A stretch of DNA of 64,000 nucleotides from Candidatus Tumulicola sp. Its GTDB lineage: Bacteria; Vulcanimicrobiota; Vulcanimicrobiia; Vulcanimicrobiales; Vulcanimicrobiaceae. A program made the position numbers and the translations under genes. Positions within the stretch are counted from its first letter, which is position 1. Each line of letters opens with the position of its first letter. The stretch is taken from contig DASXDT010000006.1 in the NCBI GenBank assembly GCA_036490475.1, positions 1,116,001 to 1,180,000 of the forward strand, in the 5' to 3' direction. The notes under the pieces were generated by a model, which ran no database searches, was not told where the DNA came from, and was given only the letters and a program-made list of their open reading frames with translations. This document shows, piece after piece, positions 7,565 to 50,343 of this stretch.

Positions 7565-10500
7565 GGCGGCGGAAACGTCCGTTGATATTTGAAGTCGATG
7601 CCGTTCCCGCCAGTGGCGATTGGAATCGTCGCCGTCGATATGCCGGTGCCGGTCGACGTCGTTTGGGAGAGGAACGGCTGCGTTGCGAAGGGATTCTGCT
7701 GCAGCGATGTGTAGGCCGTCATCTGCAACTGCGACGAGATGTTCGGGCGATATTGCACCGTATACGCCGTTCGGCGCGTTTCGTTGAACGTTTCGGCGAA
7801 GATGAAGCTGACCTTGTCGCCAAGCTTTTTCACGGCGCTAATGCCCAAGCCGCTCTGCAGGTCGTTGGTGATCTGAAAGTTCTGGAGTCCGAGCGTGTCG
7901 CCGACGGCCACCGATAGCGGTTCGAGCAAATTGCGCGTGAACAGCGTGTTCAACTGGCCTGCGGCAAGGTTCGCGATCGCCGCACCGGCCGAGAACGACC
8001 CGCCACCCGTCGCTGCGACGCCGCGCACCGCCCCTAACGATTGCGCGTTCACCAAGAGCCCGAGTATCTGATCGCGATCGTACGGCGGCTGCGACGCAAA
8101 CCCAAGATTCAAACTGGTCGCCGGACCGGTGACGTGGAGCGTGACGTCGGTACTCGGATTCGAAACGTACGTCGTGGCCGTTGCGTCGACATCGGGAACG
8201 ATGCCGCTGTTGGGATCGAACGTAACGGTACCGCTCTGCACGCGGAAGTCGCGAAGAAAGCTGACCGTGCCGCCGGTCGACGTGAACGTTCCCGAGAGTT
8301 GCGGCTTGGCCAGCGTTCCGGCAACCCTGAGCGAGCCGGTGGCACCGAGATCGATGTTCGGGCTCTGCACGCGGACGTCGCGGCCAACATTGATTTGCAA
8401 GTCGAAGGCGAGCGGCGGAAGCGCCGGTGCCGATCCTCCCGCAGGCTTCGGATTATACAGCGCTGTAAGCGGGATGCGCGCGGATGCGACCGACACCGAA
8501 CCCGATGCGAGGATCGGGCTGCCGGGCTGGCGGCTGAGCGCGACGTTGGCATCCAGCTTGCCCTTGAAGTATTTCGGAAGATCGAACTGCGCTTGCGTGG
8601 TGCGCATCGACAATGCGAACAACGCATCGCGCGGATCTCGAAAGTTCGGAATCCACGCGTACCCGTTGCCGGCCACGCCGCCGCCGCCCGCTCTCGCCGA
8701 GAATGTGTTCAGCGTAATGGTCTGCTTGTCGAACGCGACCTGCGCAACGGTGTCGGTTATCGGAATCGATTCCGCCGGCCCCGAGAACGAGCCGCCGGTA
8801 AGCCCGAGCGATCCGCCGAGTTCGGGTTTGTTGAGATTGCCGGCGATCTGCACCGTGCCATCGATACGTCCCGTCACGTTGGTGTTTTTCGGCAGCATCG
8901 ATACGAAGTTCGACAGCTCGACGTCGTCTGCGATGATTCGCGCCGAAACGGGCACCCCGCCGGGATCGAGTGCGAACGGGGCGAGCCGGATCGGCAAGGT
9001 CGCGTCGGCGAGGATTCGCCCACGTTCGAAATTGATGCCGGCGCCCGCCAGCGACACCGCACGCCGGGTCGCCGTGATACGTCCGAATACCGCATTAGCC
9101 GTGAAATTTCCGTACCGCGGCTTCGTCAATTGAACGTCGTCGGTAATCATCGGATCGTCGCGCGTGCCCGCGATGTGCGTGTTCATGGCGAGCGAACCGG
9201 ATGCGTCGTACTTCGTGCCCAGCGTCGTATTGACGAGTGCCACGGCATCATCGCTCTTGGTGCGGACGTCGATCGCGAGCGGGTCGGTGGAGTGCAATCC
9301 GAACGCGCCGTCGGCATCGACATTCAGATGCGGCGCGCGAATCGCTAAACTTTGTAAACGTCCGCGTCCGGCTCGCGTGGCGAGCACCGCGCTCACGCTT
9401 TGGACCGGCAGCCGCAATACGGTCGCGTCGATCACGTTGGCACGCACGTTGGTATCGAGGTTCGGAAAGCTGCCGGCGACGGTCGCGTCGACCGACGCGG
9501 TTCCGGTAACCGGCATTTGCAGTCCGGCAACGGGGAGCCAATGCGCCAGTGCGACGTTCCGCGCGTGCGCCGCGATATCGACGAAGCCGCGGACCCCGAC
9601 CGATCCGGTCGCCGAGAAGTTGCCGTATTGCCCGTCGGCGGCGACATCGGCGTGAATGTCGCCGGCGTTCCCGTTCCAGGCCGCGCGGGTCGTTCCGATC
9701 GCGATGCCGCGAACGGCCGTTCCGACGATCGTTGTTTGTCCGTTCGTTGCGAGCACCGTTCCGCCGGCTAGCGTGGCCGATGCGCGCAGACTCCCCCGCC
9801 CCGCCAGCATGTCGCCGGCGTCGAAGAAGTCGTTGAAATCGGCGGCGTTCATGTACGGCGCCGAAACGCTTAAGCGCTGTTGTGACGGTGACAAATCTCC
9901 GGAAAACGCGATCGCGGTGGAGCCGATGCCGACGTTGCCGTCGCGCAACTGTACCGAGCGCTGCGTTCCGCGTAGATTGGTGTGTAACTCGTGGAACGGT
10001 AAGCCGTTCACCGCGCCTTCGGGAGCCGCCAGCGTTCCCGAAACCGCAACGTCGGCGCCGCGGCCGGTGGCGTGCAAACGCGCGTCCGCGCTTCCTTCGA
10101 TCGTTTTGGCCAAACTAGGACGCGCCAACGCGACGACCGACGAGAGGTCGGCTGCGTGCAGGTTTGCATCCAGGGCGTACGCCGGTGCGCCGTCCGTCAG
10201 ATCCGTCACGGTTCCTTGCGCTCGCACGAAGTTGCCCTGCGCGGCGACGGTCGCGTTTTGCAAGTCGATGGCGCCATCGTTGTAGGAGGCGACCGCCATC
10301 GCGATCGCATCGAGTGCGCCGATACCGCGCGCGGTTAAGGCGATCGCCAACTGCGAGCCGTGCGTCGTGCCGAATCGCGCATCGGCGGCGGCCACCGGGC
10401 CATATGGCGTGACGACATCGCGCGCGTGCGCGAAGCCATCGGCATACGTGCGATTTCCGTGCATCCCGGCCAGCATATCGGCATCGATCGCGGCACCGAC

Positions 10501-15204: not shown

Positions 15205-16587
15205 ATGGCAGCAGTGCCCACGAACGAGCCGATCTTGCAGGTTCCGCCATTACGCCGCAGCCTCGGGCTGGTCGACGTTGCGTTGTTTTTCGTCGTAGCT
15301 GGGTCGAACTTGCAATGGGTCGCAACGGCCGCCGCCGCCGGACCATCGTCGATCCCGGTGTGGATTTTGGGCGCCGCGACGATGTTTCTACCGTTGTCGA
15401 TCTGCGTCGTATCTCTCACGTCACGCTATCCCGACGAGGGCGGCATGTATGCGTGGAGCAAACGCGCTTTCGGACCGTTTGCCGGATTCTTCACCGGCTG
15501 GACGTACTGGACGTCAAATCTGCCGTATTTTCCGGCTCTGCTCTACTTCGCCGCCGGAAACGCGTTGTATTTCGGGAATTGGAGCCACGCTCTCGGGTCG
15601 TCACCGCTGTACTTCATTGGGTTCGCGCTCGCCGGATTAGCGCTCGGAACGATCGTCAACGTCTACGGCTATTCGGTCGGGCGCTGGCTCAACAATGCGG
15701 GCGCGCTCAGTCGTTGGATCGTGACGCTGGCGTTGATCGCGCTGGGCGCCATCGCATGGGTGAAGTTCGGTGCGGCGACGCCGATTACCGCGGCCACGAT
15801 GCGTCCCGAAGCAAGCTTGAAGAATGCGATCTTCTGGTCGGTCATCGCGTTTGCGTGGACTGGGCCGGAGGCAATCTCGTTTATCGCCGGTGAGGTACGC
15901 CAACCACGACGTTCGATTCCGCTGGGGCTGGCGATGGCGGCCCCGGCGATCGGCGTGATCTACGTGCTCGGCACGGTCGCGGTGCTCGTTGCGCTGCCGT
16001 CGCATTCCGTCGATCAGTCGTCGGGTGTCATGCAAACGATCGCGCAAGTCGCAGTTCGGTTAAATTCGGCGTGGATCGTGCCGGTCGCCGCATTTCTCGT
16101 GGTTGTGAGTTGTTTAGGGAGTTGCGGAGCGTGGTTGGGTGCCGTCGCGCGTATTCCATTCGTTGCCGGCATCGATCACTATCTTCCAAAATCGTTCGGA
16201 ATCATGCACCCCCGCTGGGGCTCTCCGGTCGTCGCGCTGCTGTCACAGTCGGGCATCGCCGCGGTCTTCGTCGTCCTCGGACAAAGCGGCAGCAGCGTAC
16301 ACGGAGCTTACGATATTTTGGTAAGCTCGACCGTGCTGATCACGATGCTCCCGTTCATGTTCTTATTCGCAGCCGCCATTAAATTACGCGGTGGCTTTTG
16401 GATCGTCGCTTGCGCCGTCGTCGGCTTCATAACGACGGTCGCGGCCGCCATCTTCGCATTGATTCCAGCGCCGGACGACGCCGACAAAGTAGTAAGCGTG
16501 GCCAAGGTGCTGTTCTTGACCGCGTTGCTCGCGGGAGCCGGCGTCGCGGTGTATTGGCTGGGCCGTCGCCGTCTCCCGAACGGTTAG
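15205..16587 (+). CDS. APC-family amino acid permease
   Basis: A 460-residue permease with about 12 membrane helices. The first helix region (LGLVDVALFFVVAGSNLQWVATAAAAGPSSIPVW), the SRYPDEGGMYAWSKRAFGPFAGFFTGWTYW loop and the FAWTGPEAISFIAGEVRQPRRSIP segment are classical for APC-superfamily amino acid transporters. The ATG at 15205 is chosen; a GTG at 15214 is in frame and equally near a weak GGGA site, and the open frame upstream lacks homology. The substrate is not deducible. It is divergent from the PDZ/GAF gene and converges with a 4-base overlap on the gene at 16584. Confidence 0.85.
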   Translation: MAAVPTNEPILQVPPLRRSLGLVDVALFFVVAGSNLQWVATAAAAGPSSIPVWILGAATMFLPLSICVVSLTSRYPDEGGMYAWSKRAFGPFAGFFTGWTYWTSNLPYFPALLYFAAGNALYFGNWSHALGSSPLYFIGFALAGLALGTIVNVYGYSVGRWLNNAGALSRWIVTLALIALGAIAWVKFGAATPITAATMRPEASLKNAIFWSVIAFAWTGPEAISFIAGEVRQPRRSIPLGLAMAAPAIGVIYVLGTVAVLVALPSHSVDQSSGVMQTIAQVAVRLNSAWIVPVAAFLVVVSCLGSCGAWLGAVARIPFVAGIDHYLPKSFGIMHPRWGSPVVALLSQSGIAAVFVVLGQSGSSVHGAYDILVSSTVLITMLPFMFLFAAAIKLRGGFWIVACAVVGFITTVAAAIFALIPAPDDADKVVSVAKVLFLTALLAGAGVAVYWLGRRRLPNG

Positions 16588-17444
16588 CGCTTCCCCGCTT
16601 CGGGCAAGCAAAAACCTGTCCACACAGCTTTAGCAAACTCCCAAGAAAATGTCTCGTAAGACGCGTAAAATCTACTAGCGACGCCCGCATATAGCAGCGC
16701 GGTCGCTCCGTACGTCAAGACTACACTCAGATTGAAAATCTGCGATTGCGCAAACAGACAGCCGAGTGTGCTCATCATCGCCGCTATTGCTACGATGCCA
16801 AGGATATCTGTATTCCGGTTTCCCTCAACGCCCTGGCTAACGCGCAAAATGCCCAGCACCAGCGTGGCAATAAGTGAACCGATTAAGATCAATGATGCGG
16901 TAGCAGCGATCCAACAAAGATGCCAATAACCGGCAGTCCACCCCAGCATGTAAACGAAGCCGAGGGCAAACGCCACGGCCAGTCCTCGCATCATCGAGTA
17001 TAACCCCTGAAACTGCTGTGCGTACGTCCCAGAATCGTTAATGTTTGTTAAGGCCCGAGCCAATCGAAAGGCAGATTTTCTGACCGCGTCAACCTCATCG
17101 TTTTGGTCCAGATGAACCTTGGGGTCGATACCAAAGCAGTCGATACATTTTGCCGAAATTTTCGCTTTCATCGGCGTCGAAAGAGTCTTGTCGGAGGAAT
17201 CCAGCAACCGTGTAGATGGGTAACGGCCGCCGAATTCGGAAGGCACTGCTTTTGTCGCCATTGATTGCAAGAAATATCCGACAAGGTAAGAAATAATTGC
17301 TGCGACAACGGCCAACGAAAATTCGCCCCAATCAAGGGACGGCCTCCACGCCGTCAACGCGAATGGCCCGTAGGTAATGAGAAGTATGACTAACCCAGGA
17401 ATGAAGTACCCATACACATCGTAGAAATTGAATTTTTCGATCAC
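16584..17444 (-). CDS. Membrane protein of unknown function, coupled to DHH phosphoesterase
   Basis: A 286-residue protein starting at the GTG at 17444, five bases past the upstream stop; an ATG at 17489 would overlap the DHH gene by 41 bases. It opens with FNFYDVYGYFIPGLVILL and has two N-terminal helices, a roughly 90-residue cytosolic loop with a CIDCFGIDP stretch, then four C-terminal helices after AQQFQGLYSMMRGLAVAF. I have seen this YGYxxPG opening in uncharacterised membrane proteins with a polar loop but know no function. Composition is clearly AT-richer than the surroundings (26 G+C of 60 at 16621-16680, versus 42 of 60 at 15901-15960). Probably co-transcribed with the DHH gene. Confidence 0.6.
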   Translation of the reverse strand: MIEKFNFYDVYGYFIPGLVILLITYGPFALTAWRPSLDWGEFSLAVVAAIISYLVGYFLQSMATKAVPSEFGGRYPSTRLLDSSDKTLSTPMKAKISAKCIDCFGIDPKVHLDQNDEVDAVRKSAFRLARALTNINDSGTYAQQFQGLYSMMRGLAVAFALGFVYMLGWTAGYWHLCWIAATASLILIGSLIATLVLGILRVSQGVEGNRNTDILGIVAIAAMMSTLGCLFAQSQIFNLSVVLTYGATALLYAGVASRFYASYETFSWEFAKAVWTGFCLPEAGKR

Positions 17445-17448
17445 GCTG

Positions 17449-18498
17449 TCAGACCGCAGCGGAGTCGATAGGGCTCTCGCGTATATCACCTAGAATCGCA
17501 TCAAAAACATCCTGTGCGTGTTCAACGGCTGTTCCGGGCACGATGACAGAAGCGACTCGCCTGTGGCCACCGCCACCATATTTGCGAAATAATTCGCCGA
17601 GTTCGATACTGCGAAATTGCCGCCAAGGGTTACGCATTGCCGTTATCTTCCAGTGTTGCTTCGTGCGAGTCAAAGACAGTGAATACGAAGCGTCCGGATA
17701 AAAGATATAAGGGCTATATCTGCTGATGGTTCTCGCTTCACTCTCGGACGTTGAAACCGCCACGATATCTCCGTCCACCAACCGCACGGATTTTTCGACG
17801 GCCTTCAGGCCAGCGCGTATCCGGCGTCGCGCCGTTATTGTTCGCTTCTGGACTTCGGGCAGCGCGCTGACCTCCTCTAGCGACAACCGAAGCAGGGAAC
17901 GCACGAGCAGCTCCGCATATTTTGAATCGGCACCTCCTGCGGATAGCCCGAGGTTGATGTCCATGGCGGGGCTCCCTCCATAGACGGCCTCTTCGACCGA
18001 TGAATAGCTAGCCGAATCTATCTTGTCCGCCCATTGAGCCATATCACGATACCGGTCGGGATCCGATAGGCTATCCCGAAGACGCTCAAACAGTAGCAGG
18101 GCACACGATTGTGCTTCGGGGTCGTAAATTAACCACTCGCCTGGACGGTCTCTTTTTGCCAAGTAGTCCTGTTGATTTTCGCTTGTTAAGAAAGTCGTGG
18201 CATGGTGATCTGCCCAGAAAACTGCGCCCGGGTGGTACAGAAAATCAACGACAGCCGATCGGTGCGGCAGACTGATATCCAGCCACTGGGCTTTCAGATC
18301 ATAATCAACAGGCCGAAAATCCTCGATTTTCCAGTCGTGGAACATGGTCAGGTGGTCGGCGGCAATCGCACTTGAGATCAGTCCGTCAAAACACGGAAAG
18401 TGGAAGTAAATAGCGTCGCTGCCGGCCGCGCGTTGTTGCATGAGGCGTGAGGCATGAGGCGTATTATCCACGGTAATGATTCCTGCTTGTAGCGACAC
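17449..18498 (-). CDS. DHH-family phosphoesterase (DHH plus DHHA1)
   Basis: A 349-residue cytoplasmic protein with the full set of DHH motifs: motif I HFPCFDG (His33, Asp38), motif II WLDIS (Asp74), motif III ADHH (97-99), motif IV ADKID (Asp158), and the DHHA1 substrate-binding motif GGGGHRRVAS (308-317). The family hydrolyses phosphodiesters in short oligonucleotides, cyclic dinucleotides or pAp using two Mn ions. There is no membrane segment or CBS domain, so it resembles NrnA-type enzymes but is diverged (HFPCFDG instead of the usual H.DPDGD). The start is GTG at 18498; ATG at 18441 is possible. Composition is about 50% G+C, lower than the flanks. Confidence 0.8.
   Translation of the reverse strand: MSLQAGIITVDNTPHASRLMQQRAAGSDAIYFHFPCFDGLISSAIAADHLTMFHDWKIEDFRPVDYDLKAQWLDISLPHRSAVVDFLYHPGAVFWADHHATTFLTSENQQDYLAKRDRPGEWLIYDPEAQSCALLLFERLRDSLSDPDRYRDMAQWADKIDSASYSSVEEAVYGGSPAMDINLGLSAGGADSKYAELLVRSLLRLSLEEVSALPEVQKRTITARRRIRAGLKAVEKSVRLVDGDIVAVSTSESEARTISRYSPYIFYPDASYSLSLTRTKQHWKITAMRNPWRQFRSIELGELFRKYGGGGHRRVASVIVPGTAVEHAQDVFDAILGDIRESPIDSAAV
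18441..18461. repeat. Three tandem 7-base repeats
   Basis: TGAGGCG, TGAGGCA and TGAGGCG lie head to tail inside the 5' end of the DHH gene, between its two possible start codons (GTG 18498 and ATG 18441). A unit of seven is not a multiple of three, so gain or loss of a copy would shift the frame from the upstream start but leave the downstream start unaffected. Confidence 0.7.
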
Positions 18499-18654
18499 GA
18501 ACGTGTGTTCAAAAGTTCCCCGGACGGTTCCTACCGGGCCGTCATTCTCGATAATCTACCACGGAAGTTTCGCCGTTCGACTCGAGCGGCCATGACCTTT
18601 GAAAACCTGCGAGCCATCGCACACCGTGCCTATCGAAGCATCGGCGACGCCCAT

Positions 18655-19512
18655 ATGATGAGCGTTAACACAGTGTACTCAAATATCCGGTGGGGTGCCG
18701 CCGTGATCGTTCTCGCTTTGCCGCAGGCGGTCGCGGCCGCGTCGCCCGCGCCGAGCGCGGTTCCGCGTATCGCGCACGTTACGATCATCGTGATGGAGAA
18801 CCGCGACGACGAATCGGTCGCGGGAAACAAAAATGCTCCGTACTTCAATAATCAACTCGTTCGGCAGGGCGTGCTGATGACCAACGCGCACGCGGTGGCG
18901 CATCCTAGCCAGCCGAATTACCTCGCCCTATTTTCGGGATCGACACAGGGCGTAACGTCGGACCACTGTCCTGTCTCATTCGAAGCTCCGAATGTCGCCA
19001 CCGAGCTAATGGCCGCGGGCTTAACGTTCGCCGGGTACGCGGAGTCCATACCGCGCGACGGCTATCAGGGCTGTTGGACGGCGCTGTATGCGCGCAAGCA
19101 CGTGCCGTGGGCCGATTTCGCGAACGTGCCGGCATCGCTCAACCGCGTCTATCACGGGCTGCCGTCGCAGCTGCCGTCGTTGCTGTGGATCACGCCGAAC
19201 ATGTGCAACGATATGCATAACTGCTCGACGCGCACCGGCGACCGTTGGCTGCAGGCAAATCTCCCGCAACTCATTGCGTGGAATGCGAAGAACGACGGCC
19301 TATTGATCGTTACGTGGGACGAAGCCGAACCGGATCGCGACGGAACGAACCGGATTCCAACCGTGCTGGTCGGGCCTATGCTGCGAGCCGGAACTACCTC
19401 TGCGCAGCGTATCGACCACTATTCGACCTTGCGCACGATCGAGGCCGCGTTCGGCCTTGGCTGCTTGCAAAAGGACTGTTCGTCAAGTCCCATCGGCGGT
19501 ATCTGGCGTTGA
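18655..19512 (+). CDS. Secreted phosphoesterase (PF04185-type, acid phosphatase-like)
   Basis: A 285-residue exported enzyme with a signal peptide (AAVIVLALPQAVAAA). Alkaline-phosphatase-superfamily signatures follow: IIVMENRDDES with its metal-binding Glu/Asn, HAVAHPSQPNYLALFSG, LLIVTWDEAEPDRDG, and DHYSTLRTIEAAFGL at the end. This is the layout of the phospholipase C/AcpA group; single-domain secreted members act as phosphatidylinositol or acid phosphatases. The start is placed at 18655 (a second ATG follows directly) because the signal peptide begins there; in-frame ATGs at 18505 and 18592 would add a non-signal-like arginine-rich leader. Its 3' end overlaps the convergent MFS gene by 30 bases. 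Confidence 0.8.
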   Translation: MMSVNTVYSNIRWGAAVIVLALPQAVAAASPAPSAVPRIAHVTIIVMENRDDESVAGNKNAPYFNNQLVRQGVLMTNAHAVAHPSQPNYLALFSGSTQGVTSDHCPVSFEAPNVATELMAAGLTFAGYAESIPRDGYQGCWTALYARKHVPWADFANVPASLNRVYHGLPSQLPSLLWITPNMCNDMHNCSTRTGDRWLQANLPQLIAWNAKNDGLLIVTWDEAEPDRDGTNRIPTVLVGPMLRAGTTSAQRIDHYSTLRTIEAAFGLGCLQKDCSSSPIGGIWR

Positions 19513-37523: not shown

Positions 37524-38270
37524 TTACGGAGAAAACAATCTCCAGTCGCCCTCGGAGATTACTTCGATGTTTCCGTCCTTCACTCGGATGGCCGTCTGAT
37601 CGTCAATTGCGTAGACCGGGACGGGTAACATCGACGCCCATTTTTCGGCGTTCGCTAGAGAAGCGTCTTCATGATCTGGGTGGTTGAGGTGCGGAACGAT
37701 CGCAAAGTCGACGAACCCCGCTCCGCGAGCCGTAACGAAAAGTCTGCTCGTGTTGCCTTGGGGCGTCGCGAATTCGATGTCCCGCGATGTCAACACGCAA
37801 TTGCTATCGATTGGCGAACTGTCGTACGTCTCACCAAAGGTGGAAGCGACAGTCATGCTCCCGGCACTAACTCCGACGTAAACGAGGTTGGGCAGCGTCG
37901 AAAGGAGATCTGTTAGCCCAGATTCGCGCATCCAGTGGCTGAGATAAACCGGGTCACCGCCCCAAACCAGTATCGCGTCCGCCTCCTCGACCGCGCGGGA
38001 CCAGGTCTTGTTGTCGATCGTTGGCAGCGCGGTGAGTTCCAGCAATCCTACCGATTTCCAACCCAATTGCGTCATGGTAGATTGCGTCATTGGAGATTGC
38101 GGTTCTCCGCAGATCGCCTTATACGCGATATATGGCCCGCCGGCGAACGGATAGATTCCCGTAACGACAACGAGCGCATTCGATTCGGCAATCGGTTTGT
38201 CCAAAAGGTCGACGAGCGCAGCTTGGATGCTCGCATTCCTGGCGCCGGAGGAAGTGAGAAGCAGTTTCAT
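37524..38270 (-). CDS. Peptidase S51 / dipeptidase E-like protein
   Basis: A 248-residue cytoplasmic protein of the class I glutamine-amidotransferase-like fold. The nucleophile elbow VGVSAGSM (Ser135), the GGDPVYL loop, and IVPHLNHPDHED with a catalytic His are those of peptidase E, which cleaves N-terminal Asp dipeptides; YAIDDQTAIRV is also conserved. Its ATG overlaps the stop of the upstream lipoprotein gene (TAATG), so both are one unit. Together with the lipoprotein it has about 50-57% G+C, lower than the flanks. Confidence 0.82.
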   Translation of the reverse strand: MKLLLTSSGARNASIQAALVDLLDKPIAESNALVVVTGIYPFAGGPYIAYKAICGEPQSPMTQSTMTQLGWKSVGLLELTALPTIDNKTWSRAVEEADAILVWGGDPVYLSHWMRESGLTDLLSTLPNLVYVGVSAGSMTVASTFGETYDSSPIDSNCVLTSRDIEFATPQGNTSRLFVTARGAGFVDFAIVPHLNHPDHEDASLANAEKWASMLPVPVYAIDDQTAIRVKDGNIEVISEGDWRLFSP

Positions 38271-40501
38271 TACAGCGTCGTAGGGTCGATCCAGCCCAGA
38301 CCCTTGTTGCCTGGTTCATTAAACCAAACGTCGTTGTTCGGACCGTACAAAATACTCGGTGAAGGCGTGTAACCGCCGTTACGGTTGTAGGTGAGCACGG
38401 TGGTAACGGTTCCGCTCGGTGTTATACGGCCAACGCATCGGTCAGCGGAGTCGTAGTACCACACGTTGCCGTCGGGCGTGACGACAACATCGTTGGGATA
38501 ACAGTCGCCGGGATACGTATAGCTAGCGATAACTTTTCCGGTCGCATCAATTTCATAAAGTTTTTGATAGTTTGTGTACCACAGCTCGTCGTTAGCAGAC
38601 CACAAGGGTACGATGTTAACTTGGAACTCATGACCGTGGCGTGTTTGTTTTCCCTTCAACGTCATTTTGTAGAGATAGTTTTCGTCGTCGTACCACAAAT
38701 CACCGTCTGACGCTGTAACGATGTACTGTGGATCGGAAGGAGTTTTAAACGAGGTCAGCTGCCCGTCGGTCGTCAACCGGTCGATCTTGTCCTGGTATGG
38801 CTGAGTAAACCAAAGCGCGCCATCGCCTCCAACCGTCATCGACATCGGATCTCCGCGATATCCGAGCTCCGTAAAAGTAACCTTTCCTTGCGGGGTGATC
38901 TTACCGATGCGAGCGTTGGTGTAGTCGGTGAACCACATATTTCCATCGGGAGCCTCAACGATCGAGCAACCGGCTAACGACGTCGTTGCTTTGTAGTCGT
39001 GAATCGTGCCATCGGGTGCCCGCGTCGCGATATGACCGTTACTAAGGCACATCCAAATCGTGCCATCGGTGGCGAGAGCCATGTTGTAGCTCTCGCTCGG
39101 TAACGGATACTCTTGCGGGGTTGACGGGATGACGGCCGCCGGAGTAAGGCGAGCGCCACCATTGGCGGTAGCACCGATCGTAGCGACTGCGTCGGCGCCG
39201 GAGAATTTAACACCGATCTTTTCTTCGGACGTCGTTACGTTTGACTTTGAAAGCCCCGCGTTTTGCTGGTCGGTAGTTGACAAGTGAATCGGGTATGGAT
39301 ACTTCCCCGTGATTATTTTGCCGTGTAGGTCGCGCACTTCGACTGTGAGCGGAATGCTTTGGGCGACGCCGAGTTGCGGCTGCTTCTCGAGCGTCAGCGC
39401 GATCGATTGATACTCTGGATCCGATTTCTTGACATCGTGCAGTTCGACACGGCCGAGTAGACCGAGTTCCGATCCTTCGGTGAACCAGATGTTCTTGTCG
39501 CTACCGACGGTAATCTGAGCGAGATAGTTGTAGTCGTATTTGCCTTTTACCGGCAGCACGGTGAAGGCTCCCGAAGTTGTCATTCGGAGGATCTGATTCG
39601 TCTCGGTAAGCCACAGCGCGCCATCCGGACCTGCGACGATTGAAGTAGCGCCGGCGTCACCGGCCGGCAACACATATTCCTTAAAAGTTCCGGACAGCGT
39701 CATGCTTGCAATCTTGTTGGCCGAACTCTCGATGAACCATAGCGTGCCGTTGGCGGCCTGGCAAATTTCCGCAGGGCCGGCGTTCTGTGTCGGAATAGCG
39801 TAGCGCTTAAATTTGCCGGGTGCAGTCATGTGCGCGATGGAGTTATTGCGGTAATCGGTAAACCAAATGGACCCATCGTGAGCGCCCGTCAGAGACACGC
39901 CTTGCGATCCGGGCCCTAATTTGTAACCGTGGAATTTCCCTTGCGGCGTGATCTCAAGCATGTAGTCTGCATAATAGTACGGGTCCAGCGTCCAAAGATC
40001 GCCGAAGCCGCTCGCTATAGAAAACACGCCCGCGGACGATCCACCAAATTGTTTGGGGACTGGAAACGAGTCGAATTGTCCAGCCGGCGTTATTCGATCG
40101 ATTGCACCTGGAAACGACGTCATCCAGAAATTGTGGTCGGGACCTTCGGTAATGGATGCGATGTCGTCGCCCAGAGGAATGGCATAATCGGTCATCTCGC
40201 CGGCGACCGAACTTTTGCCAACGACGCCGTGACCGGTGAACCATACGTTTCCATCGGAGCCGGAGGTTATGCCGCCTAACGTCGTGTTGACCGGCGTATA
40301 CATCTGGTCGATGACGTATGTCTTGCCACCCGCCCGCACCGAACTCGATACGATGCGAGCCTGCGTAGTCGTCGTTTGCTTTGCCGACCCTTGATTCGGA
40401 GAGGGAAGCAACGACGCATGTTGTGCCGAGCATCCGCCCAGTACGGCGCTAAAAAAAGCGAAAAAAGAGCGTTTGCATATGATGCGCGCGGCGGAAGGCA
40501 T
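38270..40501 (-). CDS. Lipoprotein with two streptogramin-lyase-like beta-propellers and an Ig-like domain
   Basis: A 743-residue predicted lipoprotein (signal IICKRSFFAFFSAVLGGC). The ATG at 40501 is chosen because AGGAG lies seven bases upstream. Residues about 45-330 hold repeated blades of the type GSDGNVWFTG...ITPAGQ, as in virginiamycin B lyase-like propellers. Then an Ig/Big-like domain (about 345-440, IPLTVEVRDLHGKIITG), then a second propeller (about 450-740; APDGNMWFTDYTNARIGKITPQGK and similar blades). Known Vgb enzymes need a conserved His and Glu for lactone opening, which I cannot confirm here; most secreted relatives have no known activity. Its stop overlaps the S51 gene. Confidence 0.75.
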   Translation of the reverse strand: MPSAARIICKRSFFAFFSAVLGGCSAQHASLLPSPNQGSAKQTTTTQARIVSSSVRAGGKTYVIDQMYTPVNTTLGGITSGSDGNVWFTGHGVVGKSSVAGEMTDYAIPLGDDIASITEGPDHNFWMTSFPGAIDRITPAGQFDSFPVPKQFGGSSAGVFSIASGFGDLWTLDPYYYADYMLEITPQGKFHGYKLGPGSQGVSLTGAHDGSIWFTDYRNNSIAHMTAPGKFKRYAIPTQNAGPAEICQAANGTLWFIESSANKIASMTLSGTFKEYVLPAGDAGATSIVAGPDGALWLTETNQILRMTTSGAFTVLPVKGKYDYNYLAQITVGSDKNIWFTEGSELGLLGRVELHDVKKSDPEYQSIALTLEKQPQLGVAQSIPLTVEVRDLHGKIITGKYPYPIHLSTTDQQNAGLSKSNVTTSEEKIGVKFSGADAVATIGATANGGARLTPAAVIPSTPQEYPLPSESYNMALATDGTIWMCLSNGHIATRAPDGTIHDYKATTSLAGCSIVEAPDGNMWFTDYTNARIGKITPQGKVTFTELGYRGDPMSMTVGGDGALWFTQPYQDKIDRLTTDGQLTSFKTPSDPQYIVTASDGDLWYDDENYLYKMTLKGKQTRHGHEFQVNIVPLWSANDELWYTNYQKLYEIDATGKVIASYTYPGDCYPNDVVVTPDGNVWYYDSADRCVGRITPSGTVTTVLTYNRNGGYTPSPSILYGPNNDVWFNEPGNKGLGWIDPTTL

Positions 40502-48421: not shown

Positions 48422-49483
48422 ATGGCTATGAAGTCGTCGTCGTTTCTAGCGCCGCGATCGAAGCTTCCGCAACAAGCACTGGACGAGCTGCGCAGCATCA
48501 TCGATGGGTACCATCTGATGCGCTCCGCGTCGGATGCCGGGTCGAACAGCGACGCGGAGATCTCCAAGCTTGAGAGCAAGCTGCAGACGTCGCCTGCGCA
48601 GCTATGGTGGTCGGATCTCGCCATGGCCGAGTTGTGCGTTGCGGCTATATTGCCGGCCGACCAGATTCGTTCGACCCTCCCGTCGTGGCGGCGCCGCCTG
48701 CAGGACGTCGTCGGTTCGAACCGCTACTCGCAGTACGTCGCCAGCGCGGTCGACATTTCGCAAGAGCAAGACGTCGACGTTTTGCGCGCCGATTTGATGT
48801 CGTGCATCCGAGCCGTCTACTATTTTTACGGTTCGTACGGCGTCGCGGCGTTGAGCCGCACTCGGGCCGCCGAACGGCTTGTCGCGGCCGCCATCGTCAT
48901 CCTCGCCGTCCAAGCGATCGCATTCGCCGTTGCGTGGCTGTTGCCTAACATCGCCGGCTCGTGGAGAGCCGTTGCCGCCCTCGCAATCGCGACGTCGGCC
49001 GCTGCGGTCGTGGGCAGCGTCGTAAGCGTTCAGCGACGCCTGCAAGACCCAACCGTCGAAGTCGATCCGTTTTACCGTTTCATTCAAACGGATGCAGATT
49101 GGTTTGGAATCGCCGTTATTTCGCCGATGTTCGGAGCCATTTTTGGCCTGCTCGTGTACGGTCTGCTCGTGTCGAAGCTCTTGTCCACCAGCATAGTAAC
49201 GTTCCAAGAAACTTCGAGCGATCCATTAGCGATTGCGTTGCCGGCATCCGTGGCCGGTTACGCCGCTGTCGTTATCCTCGGCTTCATCTCGGGGTTCGCG
49301 GAGCAGTTGATACCCGACGCATTGACGCGAATCGCGACTCGTGCGCTTGCCGGCGTTGCCGGTGGCGACTCGACGACGGTGCAATCACCCGCTGCCAGTC
49401 CGTTTGTGAGAAGCGCGGCGAAAGCGAGCTCCGATGGTTCGAACGCTTCCGCAGTGGATGACGCGACGAAGTCGACGCAATAG
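48422..49483 (+). CDS. Multi-helix membrane protein, first gene of a three-gene unit
   Basis: A 353-residue protein. Residues 1-145 are a soluble helical region (coiled-coil-like SDAEISKLESKLQTS). Four helices follow (about 156-177, 184-203, 230-252 and 275-296), with FGAIFGLLVYGLLVSKLL and GFISGFAEQLIPDALTRI between and after them. I recall similar helical pairs in uncharacterised bacterial membrane proteins but know no function. The C-terminal 50 residues are Ser/Ala-rich and unstructured. An AGAGG-type site precedes the ATG. Its TAG stop overlaps the next GTG by one base, so the following gene is coupled. Confidence 0.6.
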   Translation: MAMKSSSFLAPRSKLPQQALDELRSIIDGYHLMRSASDAGSNSDAEISKLESKLQTSPAQLWWSDLAMAELCVAAILPADQIRSTLPSWRRRLQDVVGSNRYSQYVASAVDISQEQDVDVLRADLMSCIRAVYYFYGSYGVAALSRTRAAERLVAAAIVILAVQAIAFAVAWLLPNIAGSWRAVAALAIATSAAAVVGSVVSVQRRLQDPTVEVDPFYRFIQTDADWFGIAVISPMFGAIFGLLVYGLLVSKLLSTSIVTFQETSSDPLAIALPASVAGYAAVVILGFISGFAEQLIPDALTRIATRALAGVAGGDSTTVQSPAASPFVRSAAKASSDGSNASAVDDATKSTQ

Positions 49484-50343
49484 TGCAGCAGCACGTTCTT
49501 CTGGCAACGTGGATAGCGAATCACTGGTCCGACGTCGCGAGCGTCGCTTCGATCGTGATCGCGTTCGTCGCGGCATTTCGGCCGGAGCTGCACGCGCTCT
49601 TGCGACCACGACGCGTCGACGTTCTGCTTAGCGACAGCCTATTTTTGGAGATCGGCTTCAATGGTTTTGGGCCGACGCTCGGAGTGATCGGCACCTTGAA
49701 CAACGAGCACGCGCGCTCATTGATAACCAAAATGCGCATTCGACTCAAAGCCTCCGGCGCAAACGGTGAGTTTGTTCTGACGCCGCTTTTTAATCGGGAA
49801 CGCGCCATCAATAGCGCGCTCGCCGGCGGTGAAGAAGCTCGCGGCAAGTTCTGGTTACCATTCCTGATCGAGGCGGACGTCGCCATCCCCTTCGACATCT
49901 TCTTTCGCAACGATGCTGCGACCGCCGCGGTAACGTCGAGTGGCTTCAACCTAGGGCAGGCGTGGATGTCCTACGCCAACGCCAAGGTGCAAGAAAACGA
50001 ACAAGCGCTATCCGATCCGGATCCAACTACGATGCAGGCGAAGGTCGCGGGCTACCTAACCGCCCTCTCTAATGAGTCGGGTAGCCAAGACTTTATCGTG
50101 ACCGCTAGCCGGGAATTGAGTGATGCGTTTGTATGGCAGGTGCAAACGTATGAAGCTCGCCTAGAAGTCGACGTGCTGGATTGCCATCGCGCCTTCTCAC
50201 GGAGTTTCCAATTTGCCATCTCCGAAGAACAGCTTCGACAGCTTCAGGAGAACATCGGCGTCATAATCGCGATCGTCTGCAAACAGCTCGACCCGAACAC
50301 CGTTCCGTGCTCCGCTTTTTCGAAGATAACGCTCGAAGATTGA
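49483..50343 (+). CDS. Membrane-anchored protein of unknown function
   Basis: A 286-residue protein beginning at GTG. A single N-terminal hydrophobic helix (about residues 8-32, SDVASVASIVIAFVAAF) anchors a long soluble region rich in beta strands and helices (RVDVLLSDSLFLEIGFNGFGPTLGVIGTLNN near the start). The segment FEGE-like motifs of known enzymes are absent, and I do not recognise a family. It is sandwiched between the multi-helix protein and the HExxH peptidase with overlaps on both sides (TAGTG and TTGA), so the three are probably produced together. G+C is lower in its first part (32 of 60 at 49621-49680). Confidence 0.55.
   Translation: MQQHVLLATWIANHWSDVASVASIVIAFVAAFRPELHALLRPRRVDVLLSDSLFLEIGFNGFGPTLGVIGTLNNEHARSLITKMRIRLKASGANGEFVLTPLFNRERAINSALAGGEEARGKFWLPFLIEADVAIPFDIFFRNDAATAAVTSSGFNLGQAWMSYANAKVQENEQALSDPDPTTMQAKVAGYLTALSNESGSQDFIVTASRELSDAFVWQVQTYEARLEVDVLDCHRAFSRSFQFAISEEQLRQLQENIGVIIAIVCKQLDPNTVPCSAFSKITLED

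Follow-up and report, generated by a model that had tools for sequence, protein, structure and literature searches.

Csx27 is an accessory protein of type VI-B1 CRISPR systems, and predictions of the function of Csx27-type proteins extend from a channel for DNA to the regulation of Cas13b. In 2019, Makarova reportedly found the Csx27 family associated with ComEC-MBL and with E1-E2-JAB. A passage of PMC7642515, which cites Makarova 2019, repeats these associations in part. CorA is the membrane effector of the CorA-NrN cassette of type III-B CRISPR systems, in which Cas10 makes SAM-AMP and CorA acts at the membrane (PMC10600005; PMC12255297). NrN, for which PggH and GdpP were reported as the nearest structural matches, hydrolyses SAM-AMP (PMC10600005). 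CorA alone is toxic, NrN lowers this toxicity and immunity requires both proteins (PMC10600005; PMC12255297), the lowering being seen even without activation of CorA (PMC10600005). PggH itself acts in c-di-GMP turnover according to a paper cited in PMC10600005, and the Sulfolobus protein MAD is, as cited in PMC7694759, a membrane-associated DHH-DHHA1 nuclease which degrades cyclic oligoadenylate.

The locus considered here lies in a 64-kb window (the whole stretch of DNA that was analysed) and comprises a gene for a DHH/DHHA1 phosphoesterase, hereafter the DHH protein, and a gene for a membrane protein, hereafter MEM. It resembles CorA-NrN of Bacteroides fragilis in that a DHH-family phosphodiesterase nearest to PggH is encoded beside a candidate membrane effector, forming a two-gene ancillary unit. 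It differs in that MEM is Csx27-like and not CorA, in that no adjoining cmr or cas genes were recognised and in that Cas10 is absent from most of the genomes concerned; the combination which defines a CorA-NrN cassette, a CorA-family protein with adjoining type III cas genes, is thus not present. MAD can be likened to the pair by description, being a DHH-DHHA1 enzyme with links to both the membrane and immune signalling by nucleotides (as cited in PMC7694759), but it is a single archaeal protein. In the open-access literature that was searched, no paper joining Csx27 proteins and DHH enzymes in one system was found.

Organization of the locus

The two-gene unit that had been predicted at 16584-18498 is present, both open reading frames being located there on the minus strand. 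The gene of the PggH/NrN-like DHH/DHHA1 phosphoesterase extends over 17449..18498 and codes for 349 aa counted from the first GTG, but translation may in fact begin at the ATG at 18441 (Met20), since very low pLDDT was obtained for residues 1-15 and relatives begin near this position. MEM, a membrane protein with six helices that belongs to the Csx27 superfamily, is encoded by 16584..17444 (286 aa, GTG start). At the junction (17445..17451, minus strand), the stop codon TGA (17451-17449) of the DHH gene is followed by the 4-nt spacer CAGC and then by GTG ATC GAA of MEM. Since TGA, CAGC and GTG are read in this order, the start of MEM is placed at 17444, four bases past the DHH stop as originally proposed; the longest open frame of MEM extends back to 17489. 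The spacing of the two genes in relatives ranges from -17 to +12 nt, with frequent ATGA overlaps.

The host genome has a size of 3.3 Mb in 7 contigs and is 96% complete. On either side of the pair lies a plus-strand gene, one for an amino-acid permease and one of the phosphoesterase family. The latter (18505-19512, PF04185) has 29 matches in its own genome and 39 in the second genome available for the genus, an unusual expansion.

The DHH protein

The DHH protein was modelled by AlphaFold2 with a pLDDT of 90.8 from 19 sequences. In Foldseek searches its fold matched many DHH enzymes (74 at E<=0.001), the best solved structure by far being PggH, the pGpG hydrolase of Vibrio cholerae (PDB 7d62; E 8.9e-17, TM 0.68/0.79), ahead of GdpP, NrnA, PAP phosphatase and RecJ; the RecJ exonucleases gave TM values of 0.4-0.57 and a larger rmsd. 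PggH was also the sole match in a profile search (HMM E 2.3e-18). Together with the fold match, the conserved residues D85, D97-H98-H99, D161 and GGGGH 308-312 place the protein in the DHH/DHHA1 superfamily. Among the invariant residues are H33, D38, D85, D97-H98-H99, D161 and G308-G311, and H312 is nearly so. Among the metal motifs of the original prediction, H33, D38, DHH 97-99 and GGGGH 308-312 therefore stand, but D74 and D158 vary in relatives. Motif I reads H-x-P-C-F-D-G across the clade formed by the DHH proteins of the pair, with Cys36 in place of the usual first Asp; this Asp is kept in the outgroups from Chloroflexota and Patescibacteria. In one of these, the Patescibacteria locus L062 (7989-9826), the DHH gene adjoins a gene which by eye looks like RNase HI.

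Two familiar identities were considered for the enzyme. Housekeeping NrnA proteins possess a motif I of the type HxxxDxD, score above the Pfam cut-offs for DHH and DHHA1 and are often encoded beside truB. The DHH protein falls under the Pfam cut-off (17.2 vs 25.9 bits), and the genome has its own NrnA elsewhere (G000:C6, ~45 kb), which carries the motif HVKPDGD and adjoins truB. On these grounds and from its position in the tree, an assignment to NrnA was rejected, and the grouping with NrnA that the original prediction had named as its refutation did not occur. PggH proper shares with the DHH protein the DHH/DHHA1 fold, the DHH and GGGGH motifs and the length, but its identity to the pair's DHH proteins is only ~20%. 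In the tree, the latter are split from PggH and from PggH-like proteins of the same phylum with 100/100 support, so that membership in the PggH clade was also rejected.

The membrane protein MEM

The AlphaFold2 model of MEM (pLDDT 84.3) has six long helices, of which two precede and four follow a loop of cytosolic type. The six helices agree with the original prediction, but the loop comprises ~73 residues (67-139) instead of 90. Among the most conserved parts are the N-terminal motif FNFYDxYGYxxPG and the loop residues R122 and R130. As a whole, the fold has no significant match among solved or viral structures.

The PADLOC profile of Csx27 covers the first four helices of MEM with an E value of 5.9e-6. 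It matched all five MEM members first tested, several with E values from 3e-8 to 6e-6, the lowest value quoted (3e-8) being that of the MEM of L046. The profile proved specific: it matched in 4 of 149 genomes, three times MEM and once a four-helix orphan, and in 0 of 14 controls. Conversely, a profile built on MEM detects four-helix proteins encoded beside ComEC-like metallo-beta-lactamases (MBL) and, in genome G944, beside an E2-ThiF-JAB protein; an hhalign comparison of MEM with these four-helix members gave a probability of 99.5% and an E value of 2.9e-23. The Csx27 superfamily is understood here as proteins with a homologous four-helix membrane core and an N-terminal FxxYDxxGxxxPG, both of which MEM shares according to the profile match, its specificity and hhalign. 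Because the Csx27 profile, the neighbourhoods of the four-helix relatives and hhalign agree, MEM is assigned on sequence grounds to the Csx27 superfamily, as a member with two extra C-terminal helices. These helices distinguish it from Csx27 of type VI-B1 systems and the wider family, as does the lack of a recognised CRISPR locus beside the pair. The partners differ as well, being Cas13b, MBL or ubiquitin-like components for Csx27 and a DHH phosphodiesterase for MEM.

In G944, which also carries the DHH pair, a three-gene operon of Csx27 type (L122:4331-8545) codes for an MBL-like protein with a weak match to LmuA, an E2-ThiF-JAB protein and a four-helix Csx27-like protein.

Conservation and distribution of the pair

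The pair is a conserved, sparsely distributed two-gene unit. A search of the same phylum with the DHH protein yielded four more genomes with proteins of 46-49% identity, all with MEM directly behind the DHH gene; the other hits were distant DHH proteins. Scanning genome contigs with an alignment of five sequences gave 18 loci, a MEM search of Methylomirabilota added two further pairs, and one more came from Acidobacteriota (G420). With one count per genome, the DHH clade is present at 22 loci. MEM follows at 21 of the 21 loci with readable sequence, 19 of them intact and two damaged, the contig ending at the 22nd (L059, Planctomycetota). In the damaged loci, MEM is frameshifted (L051) or truncated (L057) and the DHH frame is open in both; these two cases are few and may be assembly errors. 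The co-occurrence outside close relatives which the original prediction had set as a test was thus found in six phyla: Eremiobacteriota, Acidobacteriota, Tectomicrobia, Myxococcota ("Deltaproteobacteria"), Rokubacteria/Methylomirabilota and Pseudomonadota.

The pair is rare, occurring in 5/149, 3/396 (one a truncated copy) and 3/95 genomes of three phyla. Few candidates were scored for each genome in the larger searches, which makes these values lower bounds; the carriers are mostly metagenome-assembled genomes. In the 149 Eremiobacteriota genomes, strong MEM matches were obtained in exactly the five that possess the DHH clade. The distance matrices of DHH and MEM are correlated (Mantel r 0.87, P 1e-4; r 0.76, P 1e-4, when a near-duplicate and an outlier are left out), which argues that the two genes move together. 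The dN/dS values between two close pairs are ~0.15 for DHH and ~0.27 for MEM, and by this measure both genes are under purifying selection.

One DHH relative has another companion: in the Chloroflexota locus L061 (7920-9778), a DHH protein of 33% identity is encoded 2 nt ahead of an unrelated gene (8942-9778), whose product has two N-terminal TM helices, matches no known family and is possibly a swapped membrane partner.

Signs of horizontal transfer

The pair appears to have been spread horizontally, judging from several sequence features. Its G+C content is 52.5% compared to 60.8% for the rest of the window, which places it in the lowest 0.2% of equal-length stretches of the 64 kb, and in 18 of 19 loci it is lower than in the flanking DNA. 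The low G+C content noted by hand count is therefore real, but the gap is smaller than the 43-55% against ~70% given there. Neighbouring genes vary from locus to locus, and in the tree the DHH proteins from the five Eremiobacteriota genomes are united in one clade (97/97) within an otherwise Acidobacteriota group. With the patchy spread over six phyla, these features uphold the earlier hint of transfer. Scans of viral contigs and, with both proteins, of plasmids gave no relative, so that nothing points to carriage by phages or plasmids that have been sequenced. The one further genome of the genus was examined for an empty insertion site, but the best match of the neighbour gene sits there in a different context, so that the insertion junction cannot be read; the window contains no convincing tRNA or insertion-marking terminal repeats.

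A second stretch of low G+C content (38001-39500, ~52.5-53%) lies inside a 763-aa minus-strand ORF with propeller repeats of the virginiamycin B lyase type.

Defence genes and signal sources in the surroundings

A location in defence islands, for which the original prediction had proposed a test, was not confirmed: 4 of 84 neighbour genes match PADLOC at 1e-5 (PD-T4-6 twice, REase_II and RmrA), and most of the surrounding genes have housekeeping functions. Among the neighbours that were called, no cas gene could be recognised, and among 20 genomes carrying the DHH clade or L061, Cas10 was clear in one and marginal in a second, so that a type III CRISPR partner acting in trans was rejected. No signal synthase adjoins the pair, and no riboswitch that could name a signal was found upstream or otherwise near the six loci tested. 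As neither a defence-island context nor a synthase or an activity was found, a role in defence is unproven.

Possible functions of the pair

The expectation of a nucleotide-signal enzyme coupled to a membrane effector is supported in part: homology places a PggH/NrN-type enzyme beside a member of a membrane family that includes a known CRISPR accessory, Csx27. NrN-CorA is the nearest functioning parallel, and of the readings considered a similar logic without an adjacent Cas10 is the most likely. Because the enzyme is of the NrN type, the membrane protein comes from another family, no cas genes were recognised in the vicinity and Cas10 is mostly missing from the genomes, we favour, tentatively and at a little less than an even chance, a horizontally spread signalling cassette in which the DHH protein hydrolyses a small nucleotide that controls MEM. 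The substrate would be a small linear nucleotide (a dinucleotide or a nucleotide adduct), either synthesised at another site in the cell or introduced by an invader. It would gate MEM, which might then disturb the inner membrane or open a channel, and the DHH enzyme would keep MEM quiet or reset it. Loss of MEM with retention of DHH at both damaged loci fits this reading, two cases being weak evidence. The more specific version, an immune or stress module working without CRISPR, whose PggH/NrN-like phosphodiesterase with its Cys-containing motif I removes the signal that gates a six-helix pore of Csx27 type, we consider rather unlikely; if true, it would make Csx27-type proteins nucleotide-gated effectors.

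Equally doubtful is that MEM forms a channel for nucleic acids or oligonucleotides, like the one suggested for the Csx27 family, with the DHH protein degrading the material that comes through or finishing off the products, either to counter DNA entering the cell or for salvage. The four-helix relatives of MEM (L122, L124, L088) adjoin ComEC-like MBL proteins and an E2-ThiF-JAB protein, in keeping with what the relevant passage of PMC7642515 states of Csx27; MBL and DHH proteins are both phosphodiesterases of nuclease type, and the RNase HI-looking neighbour of the outgroup L062 points in the same direction. The Csx27 channel itself, however, is a prediction from the literature, the DHH fold finds its best match in the dinucleotide hydrolase PggH, the similarity to RecJ exonucleases being clearly lower, and the Chloroflexota relative has its unrelated partner with two TM helices.

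It is still less probable that the pair is a guard resembling a toxin-antitoxin system, in which the DHH protein restrains a MEM that is toxic to the membrane, through direct binding or through removal of a nucleotide common in the cell, and an invader disturbing the DHH protein sets MEM free. The two-gene size, the overlapping or nearly overlapping genes, the patchy spread and the damaged loci with MEM lost and DHH open would suit this mechanism, as would the NrN effect on CorA in the absence of activation (PMC10600005), but an antitoxin acting purely by binding needs no conserved active site.

Least probable is a function in ordinary nucleotide metabolism apart from conflict, as a hydrolase specialised for pGpG or nanoRNA and accompanied by a transporter, for which the part of PggH in c-di-GMP turnover (cited in PMC10600005) and the mostly housekeeping neighbours speak, and against which stand the very patchy distribution (5/149, 3/396 and 3/95 genomes), the G+C content under that of the flanks in 18/19 loci and the separate NrnA.

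Being reduced to one enzyme and one Csx27-like protein, and lying outside recognised CRISPR loci, the pair makes the function of Csx27-type proteins testable with two genes. With the signalling cassette favoured here, the principle known from SAM-AMP signalling, a phosphodiesterase plus a membrane protein, would also apply to a further membrane family and to systems with no adjacent synthase.

A further putative two-gene arrangement of the window matches no Pfam family at E 0.01: at 48422-50343, two plus-strand ORFs sharing one base code for 353 aa with ~4 TM helices and for 286 aa with one.
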